Assembly: GCA_944323955.1 (NCBI GenBank)
Contig: CALUUK010000006.1
Coordinates: forward strand, 1 to 64,000
Direction: 5' to 3'
Length of the DNA stretch: 64,000 bases
Source: Candidatus Gastranaerophilales bacterium
GTDB lineage: Bacteria > Cyanobacteriota > Vampirovibrionia > Gastranaerophilales > Gastranaerophilaceae
The notes beneath the pieces were generated by a model, which made no database searches, was not told where the DNA came from, and was given only the letters and a program-made list of their open reading frames with translations. The translations under genes and the position numbers were made by a program. The number at the start of each line of letters is the position of its first letter. The first letter of the stretch is position 1. Shown one piece after another: positions 4,885 to 53,971 of the stretch.

Positions 4885-5355
4885 TTATCTGTGATATGGC
4901 TCATTTGCATTAATTTTAAATGCACGGTATATTTGTTCGATCAATAACACTCTTACCATTTGATGAGTAAAAGTCATTTTTGAAAAACTCATCTTGAAAT
5001 TTGCTTTATCGCTGACCGATTTTGAAAGTCCGTTGGCTCCGCCTATTATAAAGACAACATCATTAATACCCTCATTTGATATTTCCTTTATTTTCAGTGC
5101 AAAATCTTCAGATGAAAGCATTTTACCGTTTATTTCAAGTGTAATAATGTAAGAATTAGGTTTAATTGCCTGCAAAATTCGCCTGGACTCTATTTCCTTA
5201 TATTTTTCGTTTAACGTTTCATCTATTATTTGTTCGGACTGTATTTCCGTAACAGAAAAAGAACAAAATGAAGAAAGTCTTTTTTCATATTCTTTAATGG
5301 TATCTTTTGTATATTGTTCTTTAATTCTACCGACGGCAATAATTTTTATATTCAT
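4885..5355 (-). CDS. rlmH: 23S rRNA (pseudouridine-1915-N3) methyltransferase
   Basis: 156 residues, the usual RlmH length. It methylates pseudouridine 1915 in helix 69 of 23S rRNA on assembled ribosomes. Diagnostic features: N-terminal MNIKIIAVGRIKEQY, the SAM-binding FIIGGANG segment, the SFSKMTFTHQMVRVLLIEQIYRA block, and the C-terminal NEPYHR. The open frame extends upstream to 5538, but the ATG at 5355 fits the family and has TATAAT six bases upstream, which predicts a leaderless mRNA. Its 3' end borders the phage-like module. Confidence 0.95.
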   Translation of the reverse strand: MNIKIIAVGRIKEQYTKDTIKEYEKRLSSFCSFSVTEIQSEQIIDETLNEKYKEIESRRILQAIKPNSYIITLEINGKMLSSEDFALKIKEISNEGINDVVFIIGGANGLSKSVSDKANFKMSFSKMTFTHQMVRVLLIEQIYRAFKINANEPYHR

Positions 5356-5361
5356 AGATTG

Positions 5362-5391
5362 ATTATATGAAATTAAGTTTAGTTTAGTAAA
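5362..5391 (-). promoter_or_regulatory. rlmH promoter, predicted leaderless
   Basis: TATAAT at 5367-5362, 18-base spacer, TTTACT at 5391-5386. The -10 ends six bases before the ATG, so transcription should begin at or next to the start codon; no ribosome binding site is present. Confidence 0.6.
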
Positions 5392-35031: not shown

Positions 35032-35451
35032 TTAATTCAATTCAATTTCGCTTAAAAAAGGCATTAACTTTTCAAACATAAATTTCAACAAAAGTTCATT
35101 TCTAACCAGCATATTTTTTGAAATACACTCGACATTGTGTTTTTTTGCAACAGTCTCAATATTATACATAGCCGAAATAATAATTATTTTTGAAGTTGAA
35201 TATTCTTTCAGTTCCTGTATTCTTTCAATAAGCCATTCGCCGGCAGGCAGAGGTTCAAAATCATTTTCCATCTGTAAATCGGTTATGATAATACCAAAAG
35301 GATTTGCAGCATTTCTTTTAACAATATTCAATGCTTCTTTAGCACAACCTGCGGTAGTAATTTCAAAATAATTACCAAATATATTCCTTATTGTTGCCTC
35401 ATGAAAAACGAGCCAAGATTTTGTATCATCCGCAATTAATATTTTGTTCAT
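35032..35451 (-). CDS. Stand-alone receiver-domain protein
   Basis: 139 residues from the ATG at 35451. CheY-like: DD near residues 7-8, phospho-acceptor Asp in IIITDLQMEND, Ser in IIISAM, and a Lys in CISKNML. No output domain. The loop after the acceptor is longer than usual. The ATG is preceded by TATAAT exactly six bases upstream, predicting a leaderless mRNA. No kinase is adjacent; function unknown. Confidence 0.85.
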   Translation of the reverse strand: MNKILIADDTKSWLVFHEATIRNIFGNYFEITTAGCAKEALNIVKRNAANPFGIIITDLQMENDFEPLPAGEWLIERIQELKEYSTSKIIIISAMYNIETVAKKHNVECISKNMLVRNELLLKFMFEKLMPFLSEIELN

Positions 35452-49513: not shown

Positions 49514-50254
49514 ATGAGCAATAAATATTCTGAAACAATAACAATAAAATATTCGGAAACCGATCAAAATCTTGCAATGAAACCTTTCGCTTTGTTAAAT
49601 TTTCTGCAGGATATAGCCGGTAAAAATGCAGAAGATCTGGGGTTTGGATATTCTTTTATGCATCCACAAAATTATGCATGGTTCTTAATAAAATACCGGA
49701 TGGAATTTGAAGAATACCCTTTTGATATTCAAAATCTAACTCTTGTAACAGAGCCAAGAGGTTATAACAAAATATTTGCGTATCGTAATTTTGCAATAAT
49801 GAAAAATGAAAAAACAATTGCAAAAATATCAAGTATGTGGTCAATCATTGATACGGTAAAACACTCAATGATTCCCGTTAAAGAAGTCATTAACAGCCCG
49901 TACATGCCCGCATTTGAGAAAAATGCCGAAGATTTAAATTTTGCCAAAATATCACCTCTTACCAAAATTGACACATTAATGGAATTTGAAGTAAGATATA
50001 ACGACCTTGACGTAAACGGTCATGCAAATAACGTTAACTATATTGTGTGGGCATTTGAACCGTTAACATTTGATTTTAAAAATACCCGCAGAATTAAAAC
50101 TTTAGACATAGTTTACAAAAAAGAAGCAAAATACGGCGAAACAATAGTTTCGCAAATTGAATTTAAAAACAATACAACAATTCATTGTTTAAAAAATAGA
50201 GCAGGCGAAGATTTGTGCCTTATTGAATGTGAGTGGGAAGAAATACAAAAATAG
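49514..50254 (+). CDS. Acyl-ACP thioesterase
   Basis: 246 residues, two hotdog domains in FatA/FatB fashion. N-terminal hotdog has KYSETDQN and NFLQDIAGKNAEDLGFG; C-terminal hotdog has VRYNDLDVNGHANNVNYIVWA, with the catalytic Asp, Asn and His residues in this segment. It releases free fatty acids from acyl carrier protein. An acyl-CoA synthetase gene follows after about 70 bases, so the fatty acid released could be re-activated to the CoA form. Confidence 0.88.
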   Translation: MSNKYSETITIKYSETDQNLAMKPFALLNFLQDIAGKNAEDLGFGYSFMHPQNYAWFLIKYRMEFEEYPFDIQNLTLVTEPRGYNKIFAYRNFAIMKNEKTIAKISSMWSIIDTVKHSMIPVKEVINSPYMPAFEKNAEDLNFAKISPLTKIDTLMEFEVRYNDLDVNGHANNVNYIVWAFEPLTFDFKNTRRIKTLDIVYKKEAKYGETIVSQIEFKNNTTIHCLKNRAGEDLCLIECEWEEIQK

Positions 50255-52003: not shown

Positions 52004-52030
52004 AAATCAGGCAATGCCTGATTTTTAAAT
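52002..52030 (+). terminator. Intrinsic terminator after the acyl-CoA synthetase gene
   Basis: Inverted repeat 52002-52012 with 52016-52026 (AAAAATCAGGC/GCCTGATTTTT) ending in a T run. The flanking A run would let it work in both directions. Confidence 0.85.
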
Positions 52031-52046
52031 TTTTTATATAAATTAC

Positions 52047-52075
52047 TTGACAATTTATAGACAGTTGTCTATAAT
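52047..52075 (+). promoter_or_regulatory. Consensus promoter with a palindromic SOS-type operator
   Basis: TTGACA (52047-52052), 17-base spacer, TATAAT (52070-52075). A perfect 9+2+9 palindrome (52055-52074; TTATAGACA, GT, TGTCTATAA) fills the spacer and overlaps the -10, an ideal place for repression. The -10 ends six bases before the ATG, so the mRNA should be leaderless. Confidence 0.85.
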
Positions 52076-52081
52076 ATAAAT

Positions 52082-52657
52082 ATGCTTACAGATAAACAAA
52101 AAAAATTCTTTGAAAAATTAAAAGAATTATACGGAAAAGAAATATTGCCAAGTTTTGATATTATTGCAAAAGACTTTGGGTTCAAGCATAAAAATTCGGT
52201 ATGGCAATACTTCAATAAGCTAAAAGAAGAAAATCTCATACTGGAAAAGAATAACAGATTTTGTATAAACAAAGATTTATTCGGAGCAGTATTATTTTCT
52301 TCCGTTGTAAAAGCAGGTTTTGCTTCCGTGGCAGACGACTATATAGAAAAAAGAATATCTTTGGATGAAAGTTTTAACATAAATGATTCCTCTACATTCT
52401 TATTTACGGTGTCTGGCGATTCAATGATAGACTTAGGAATATTTGAAGGTGATAAAGTTATTATACAAAAAACTAACACGGCAAAAGACGGAGATATTGT
52501 TATTGCGTACATAGACGGTGGATACACTCTAAAAACTTACCGCAATAAAAATTCAAAAGTATGGCTGGAGCCTGCCAATGCAAATTATCCCAATTTATAC
52601 CCGAAAGAACAATTAATAATTTTCGGCGTAGCACAAGGGATTGTAAGAAAATTTTAA
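52082..52657 (+). CDS. LexA/UmuD-type self-cleaving repressor
   Basis: 191 residues. Residues 1-65 form a LexA-like winged-helix region (KNSVWQYFNKLKEE). The cleavage site is Ala78-Gly79 and the catalytic dyad is Ser114 (SGDSM) and Lys151 (TLK), so RecA-stimulated self-cleavage is expected. It combines a DNA-binding domain with a UmuD-like protease domain and precedes umuC, so it probably represses its own operon through the palindrome at its promoter. No ribosome binding site; leaderless start predicted. Confidence 0.88.
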   Translation: MLTDKQKKFFEKLKELYGKEILPSFDIIAKDFGFKHKNSVWQYFNKLKEENLILEKNNRFCINKDLFGAVLFSSVVKAGFASVADDYIEKRISLDESFNINDSSTFLFTVSGDSMIDLGIFEGDKVIIQKTNTAKDGDIVIAYIDGGYTLKTYRNKNSKVWLEPANANYPNLYPKEQLIIFGVAQGIVRKF

Positions 52658-52738: not shown

Positions 52739-53971
52739 ATGGATAATAAGAAAATAATACTTGCAGACGGAAATAATTTTTTTGCTTCTTGCGAACAGGC
52801 AGTTAATCCCTCATTAAAAGGGAAACCTTTGTGTGTATTAAGTAATAATGACGGATGTATTATTGCCCGTTCAAATGAAGCAAAGCAATTGGGCATAAAA
52901 ATGGGAATGCCTTATTTTATGGCAAAAAAAGCATTTCCGAAAGCAATATATAAAAGTTCAAACTTTGCTTTGTATCATGATATGTCACAACGAATGATGC
53001 AGCGTTTATCCGGATATTCAGACTTAATTGACATTTATTCAATTGATGAAGCCTTTCTTGATATAACCGGAATGGACAGAGTTTTTAAAACCTCATATAA
53101 AAATTTAATCACCGAAATAAAAAAAGATATTGAAACCCATATAGGATTGAGTATATCAATAGGATTAGCATCATCCGTTATTTTAGCTAAAGCGGCAAAT
53201 CATAAAGCAAAAAAAAGCACGGGGATTTACATTATAGAACAAAATGAAATAATGAATGAATTAAACGAAATTCCGGTGGAAGAAATTTGGGGAATAGGAA
53301 AAAATACCGCCCGAAAACTGCGTTCTTACGGAATTTTCTACGCTGCGGATATTTTAAAAAAAGATGATAATTTTTACAGAAATATTTTAGGAAAAAAAGG
53401 GCTTGAACTAAAATATGAATTATCCGGACTCAGTGTAATTCCTGTAACCGGAATTGAAAAAAAACCGAAATCAATTCAAAGAACAAGGGCTTTCCCTGAG
53501 TTTTCAGACAATAAAGACTATATTCAAACAGAAATTATGATGCATCTTCACAATGTTTGCAAAAAACTTCGTGAAAATAACCTTGAAACCGGTGCAATAT
53601 CCGTAATGCTCAGAACAAAAGATTTTAAAGTTATTTATTTCGGTGATACAACAGTAAATCCTACAAGCAGTGAAATTGAACTTACTAAAAAGGTAAATGA
53701 ACTGTTTAATAAAATATATAAAAAAGGAATTGTTTATCGTTCGTCGGGCGTTTGGGCAGCAAATCTGCAAGATATTCAAAAACAGCAGCTTTCGCTTTTT
53801 AAAAATCCCCAAAGAGAAAAAGGTGAGAAAATCTCTTCAGTTATTGACAAAATAGAAAACAAATTCGGAAAAGGAACATTAGCCGTAGGGAAAACAGGGA
53901 TAAAAGATATCATGGAAAATCATAAATATAAAAGTCATTTAGATACTGACGGAACAGATATAAGCTGTTGA
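52739..53971 (+). CDS. umuC: DNA polymerase V catalytic subunit UmuC-like (Y family)
   Basis: 410 residues. Error-prone translesion polymerase. N-terminal catalytic Asp in LADGNNFFASCEQ, the SIDEAFLDITG block with the other acidic residues, helix-hairpin-helix IWGIGKNTARKL, and the UmuC-type C-terminus with QLSLF, a likely beta-clamp-binding site. It is preceded by AAGGA. With the upstream repressor it forms a self-regulated SOS mutagenesis cassette. The 3' end overlaps the convergent flavoprotein gene by 33 bases. Confidence 0.95.
   Translation: MDNKKIILADGNNFFASCEQAVNPSLKGKPLCVLSNNDGCIIARSNEAKQLGIKMGMPYFMAKKAFPKAIYKSSNFALYHDMSQRMMQRLSGYSDLIDIYSIDEAFLDITGMDRVFKTSYKNLITEIKKDIETHIGLSISIGLASSVILAKAANHKAKKSTGIYIIEQNEIMNELNEIPVEEIWGIGKNTARKLRSYGIFYAADILKKDDNFYRNILGKKGLELKYELSGLSVIPVTGIEKKPKSIQRTRAFPEFSDNKDYIQTEIMMHLHNVCKKLRENNLETGAISVMLRTKDFKVIYFGDTTVNPTSSEIELTKKVNELFNKIYKKGIVYRSSGVWAANLQDIQKQQLSLFKNPQREKGEKISSVIDKIENKFGKGTLAVGKTGIKDIMENHKYKSHLDTDGTDISC

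Follow-up and report, generated by a model that had tools for sequence, protein, structure and literature searches.

Genes whose sigma-70-type promoter starts transcription at the A of the ATG very probably make up a regular minority class of leaderless mRNAs in one genus of the Gastranaerophilales, an order of uncultured gut bacteria (Melainabacteria/Vampirovibrionia) adjoining the Cyanobacteriota. In the proposed mechanism, the -10 box would end six bases 5' of the start codon, RNA polymerase would start at the A of the ATG and thereby produce an mRNA without a 5' leader, and translation would rely on direct recognition of the AUG, by the 70S ribosome or by the 30S subunit together with initiator tRNA, instead of on Shine-Dalgarno (SD) pairing. 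Members of the class, which include many housekeeping genes, would each have a promoter of their own and would represent about 3-4% of the genes in this genus. The promoter geometry, its enrichment and sharpness to one base, the lack of SD motifs, the accompanying promoter marks and the conservation described below are read directly from the DNA, while the points at which the transcripts begin and the way in which they are translated are predicted from them.

The initial annotation of the window, i.e. the whole stretch of 64,000 nucleotides analysed from a Candidatus Gastranaerophilales MAG, had pointed to a fixed geometry at three genes: rlmH, coding for the 23S rRNA pseudouridine-1915 N3-methyltransferase RlmH, a receiver gene and a LexA/UmuD-like gene. 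Re-reading of the sites bore this out in 3/3 cases: TATAAT ends 6 bases 5' of the ATG, -35-like hexamers are found at 17 bases (LexA/UmuD-like gene) or 18 bases (rlmH and receiver), and no ribosome binding site is present, GGAG, GAGG and AGGA being absent upstream of the three starts (Table 1). At the LexA/UmuD-like gene, the -35 and -10 boxes taken together match the consensus at 12/12 positions. The acyl-ACP thioesterase gene is a possible fourth member of the class in the window. In terms of counts, the window contains 6 copies of TATAAT-N6-ATG compared to 2.0 in dinucleotide shuffles, a value of 6 being reached in 1/100 shuffles, and 3/6 of these occurrences are real gene starts. Since the shuffled rate amounts to 3.7 exact matches per 1483 genes, well under one such gene start is predicted in the window.

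Table 1. Features of the predicted leaderless genes in the window and leaderless-looking RNA-modification genes of the same genome (the latter given as contig:position)
Feature	Position	Strand	Details
rlmH -35-like hexamer TTTACT	5391-5386	(-)	spacer 18, consensus match 4/6
rlmH -10 box TATAAT	5367-5362	(-)	then CAATCT, then ATG at 5355
rlmH, predicted leaderless	4885..5355	(-)	ATG at 5355 = predicted transcription start
receiver gene -35-like hexamer TTGCTA	35487-35482	(-)	spacer 18, consensus match 4/6
receiver gene -10 box TATAAT	35463-35458	(-)	then TCTTCT, then ATG at 35451
receiver gene, predicted leaderless	35032..35451	(-)	single-domain response regulator (Response_reg)
acyl-ACP thioesterase gene	49514..50254	(+)	weaker -10 (TAAAAT) 6 bases 5' of ATG
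LexA/UmuD-like gene -35 box TTGACA	52047-52052	(+)	spacer 17
palindrome TATAGACAGTTGTCTATA	52056-52073	(+)	across spacer, overlapping -10 of LexA/UmuD-like gene
LexA/UmuD-like gene -10 box TATAAT	52070-52075	(+)	then ATAAAT, then ATG at 52082
LexA/UmuD-like S24 peptidase gene, predicted leaderless	52082..52657	(+)	upstream of umuC-like polymerase gene
umuC-like polymerase gene	52739-53971		downstream of LexA/UmuD-like gene
miaB, leaderless-looking	C1:62893		this genome
mnmG, leaderless-looking	C1:233211		this genome
mnmE, leaderless-looking	C2:68756		this genome
rsmA, leaderless-looking	C2:11417		this genome
RluB/RsuA-like pseudouridine synthase, leaderless-looking	C2:199431		this genome
rlmH, leaderless-looking	C6:5355		this genome

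Beyond the window, the statistics were drawn from stretches of two genomes, covering 864 kb of the 1.96 Mb of the present one (44%; GC content of 33.5% in the sampled part) as well as 711 kb from the congener G025. Genes were called by a simple purpose-written caller based on a hexamer model, starts being picked by coding score alone, and a -10-like hexamer was defined as TAnnnT with at most one mismatch to TATAAT. The initial annotation had proposed a genome-wide count of the spacing against shuffled upstream regions as a check, and this count reveals an enrichment at gene starts that is sharp to one base. At spacings of 5, 6, 7 and 8 bases, -10-like hexamers were found at 4, 42, 14 and 6 of the 807 genes of this genome, respectively, and at 3, 35, 11 and 10 of the 677 genes of the congener. 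There is thus no excess at spacings 5 and 8 and only a small one at spacing 7. Pooled, 77/1483 genes show spacing 6, compared to a mean of 21.9 and a maximum of 36 in shuffles, so that about 22 of these 77 members are expected by chance and single weak members are unsure; exact TATAAT boxes at this spacing number 34, against 3.7 in shuffles (maximum 11). The excess over chance, about 55 genes in 1483, places the class roughly at 3-4% of genes (one in 25-30), which would extrapolate to some 65 per genome. Raw counts of TATAAT-N6-ATG, compared with the reversed pattern and with N7 and N8, were dropped as a test, as N7 is equally frequent when gene starts are ignored, probably due to codon phase inside genes; the signal turns sharp only at gene starts. 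Outside the family, a smaller peak at spacing 6 was recorded in one genome (G039, family f6; 2, 11, 6 and 0 hexamers at spacings 5 to 8 among 390 genes), and a small 400 kb sample of another (G045, family f7; 372 genes) gave 6 at spacing 6 and 9 at spacing 7.

Several promoter marks that played no part in the selection of the class accompany this geometry. Position -1 is a T in 81% of the 73 ATG-start members and a C in 4%; the corresponding share of T is 43% among SD genes and 55% among those with a TA box further upstream. In the same 73 members, T reaches 68% at both -35 and -34, and 29 members carry a -35 match with a spacer of 16-18 bases, a number that averages 8.7 and does not exceed 17 in shuffles. 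A partial extended -10 element is also visible, with T at -15 in 60% and G at -14 in 30% of the class. Besides, the start codon is ATG in 72/76 members compared to 603/831 genes with neither signal, and only 8/76 members lie 30 bp or less downstream of a same-strand gene compared to 226/561 SD genes (p = 9e-8): class members head their own transcription unit and are rare inside operons. A GGAG, GAGG or AGGA motif was found at 0/49 spacing-6 starts of this genome, an absence which partly reflects the geometry itself, the -10 box occupying the position of the SD motif. The usual 3' end of the 16S rRNA (GGATCACCTCCTTT, one mismatch allowed) was not found in this MAG, probably because the 16S gene is absent from its assembly. 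Together, the T at -1, the -35 peak, the ATG bias and the separate transcription units fit a transcription start on the A of the ATG.

The geometry is also kept across orthologues of the genus, which was represented by more than 30 genomes, the data coming from MAGs; orthologues from one genus are not independent of each other, though their flanks have diverged while the geometry is kept. Spacing 6 was observed in 30/30 umuD orthologues and, with TATAAT, in 17/17 mnmG orthologues. In the other genes, it is accompanied by a minority at spacing 7: 23/30 at spacing 6 and 5/30 at spacing 7 for rlmH, 24/30 and 4/30 for the receiver gene, and 10/19 and 7/19 for miaB, some orthologues thus standing at spacing 7 or having no box. 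The distance of exactly six bases put forward at the outset is therefore a strong mode but not an absolute rule. None of the same-genus orthologues of these five genes has an SD motif, and the base at -1 is nearly always T. Receiver orthologues differ by several codons in where the ATG stands with respect to the conserved protein, and TATAAT follows the ATG, indicating that the distance is held rather than the sequence neighbourhood. Reciprocal best hits with the congener point in the same direction: the leaderless state is common to 8 pairs, differs in 10 and is absent from 167 (p = 5e-8), and none of 13 other spacings tabulated for these pairs gives more than one shared pair. In ten orthologues from other families, no -10 box was found near the start of mnmG, which suggests a putative clear-cut change in initiation mode from one family to another, and miaB shows a -10 box at spacing 4. 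With the spacing enrichment, the unselected promoter marks and this genus-wide conservation, the earlier proposal of a regular class of leaderless mRNAs in the lineage is well supported.

The minority of orthologues at spacing 7 also bears on another reading, in which the promoters are real but transcription starts one or a few bases upstream or downstream of the A. Leaders would then be very short, and another promoter further upstream might add a leadered form. The start sites of sigma-70 promoters do vary by a base or two. Nevertheless, the context of T at -1 and A at +1 is strongest at spacing 6 and favours the A itself, and leaders of 1-4 bases would be functionally leaderless anyway; we hold this reading to be improbable. 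Smaller still is the probability that transcription of these genes begins at promoters located further upstream and yields ordinary leadered mRNAs; TATAAT would then stand next to the ATG by coincidence, as AT-rich sequence that leaves the start codon free of structure, like that of other non-SD genes. The low GC content of the genome and the AT-rich upstream regions would suit such a situation, and non-SD starts in AU-rich context are well known (PMC5397173). However, AT richness predicts neither a hexamer peak confined to a single spacing, nor the -35 peak and the T at -1 that go with the hexamer, nor the retention of TATAAT in every umuD orthologue. Finally, mis-assigned starts, with true starts downstream and normal leaders, may practically be dismissed: an in-frame TTG lies upstream of the receiver start and the N-terminal length of receiver orthologues varies, but the N-termini of RlmH (MNIKIIAVGK), the LexA-like protein (MLTEKQK) and MnmG (MFKYDVIVVGAG) are conserved. 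Leaderless transcription from the A of the ATG is the reading retained here.

Regarding gene content, the annotated members include many enzymes of RNA modification, DNA repair and cofactor synthesis, as well as small regulators. A possible enrichment in RNA-modification genes is kept as a lead: 6 of about 11 such genes found by motif in the sample of this genome belong to the class, but the congener, with 1 of about 5, did not bear this out, and the comparison is post hoc. One could imagine that the ancestor of the genus switched a fixed housekeeping set (several RNA-modification genes such as mnmG, miaB, rlmH, rsmA and mnmE, and DNA-repair genes) from the leadered to the leaderless state, and that this set has since been held by selection in a regulon-like manner rather than by drift, a scenario that we consider doubtful.

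The LexA/UmuD-like gene shows an additional feature, a palindrome at its promoter (Table 1) that is kept in nearly all of the 30 same-genus orthologues. The protein, termed umuD-like in the initial annotation, aligns with full-length LexA over residues 2-190, the N-terminal DNA-binding part included, and also with UmuD', so that a repressor of the LexA type may be involved here and not simply an UmuD. The palindrome TATAGACAnnTGTCTATA is probably the operator at which a LexA-like repressor would regulate itself and the umuDC-like pair, and autorepression at a leaderless promoter would be a natural reading of its position. A search for further regulon sites returned a single occurrence in the genome of its core, TAGACNNNNGTCTA. 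Separately, an inverted repeat ATCAGGCA-TGCCTGAT lies within A/T runs at 52004-52027, directly 3' of the stop codon of the upstream gene; this hairpin-like, terminator-like element, unscored by the terminator scan, stands between that gene and the umuD-like promoter. The lambda cI repressor is made from a leaderless mRNA off PRM. The lexA/umuD-like gene would resemble it as an autoregulatory repressor with a leaderless mRNA, cI being a phage gene in E. coli for which no homology to the present gene is claimed.

Leaderless mRNAs have usually been surveyed in Actinobacteria, Deinococcota and archaea, and a clear class restricted to one clade of uncultured gut bacteria related to cyanobacteria would add an independent case. 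The mechanism would be that of the known bacterial TA-led leaderless gene; what would be new is the lineage, our literature search having found no report joining leaderless genes with Melainabacteria or Gastranaerophilales. For these MAGs, the fixed spacing provides a precise rule for the correction of gene starts and the prediction of promoters, while orthologues that switch state, such as mnmG (17/17 in the genus, 0/10 in other families), are useful for studying the evolution of the initiation mode.

TA-led leaderless genes were identified in 207/953 bacterial genomes by Zheng et al. (2011, PMC3160421), in whose list of phyla with such genes Cyanobacteria do not appear and Melainabacteria are not named. 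As in that survey, a -10-like TANNNT/TATAAT signal situated some 10-12 bp before the start takes the place of the SD motif, the genes form a minority class beside SD-led genes, and low-GC genomes show the full TATAAT; unlike its multi-phylum set, the present class concerns one lineage of an uncultured order (PMC3160421). Closer to the host, a Pribnow-like bias in Cyanobacteria is discussed by Nakagawa et al. (PMC5397173), and 19 leaderless gTSSs were mapped in Synechococcus elongatus UTEX 2973 (PMC6091082). This member of a related phylum likewise has leaderless transcripts that are few in number, but it is photosynthetic, differs in genome composition from the Gastranaerophilales host, and is not described, in the part of that report considered here, as having a fixed -10 geometry or clade-wide conservation (PMC6091082). 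Finally, a -10 motif 6-7 bp 5' of the ORF drives leaderless genes in Deinococcus-Thermus, with experimental support (PMC12340547). There, about 30% of ORFs are concerned and TACACT is the commonest motif, whereas the class described here, known from sequence alone, covers about 3-4% of genes and carries TATAAT with a -35 signal; in both cases the motif sits 6-7 bp from the ORF, and in Deinococcus-Thermus its activity is spacing-dependent and strengthened by a -35 element (PMC12340547).
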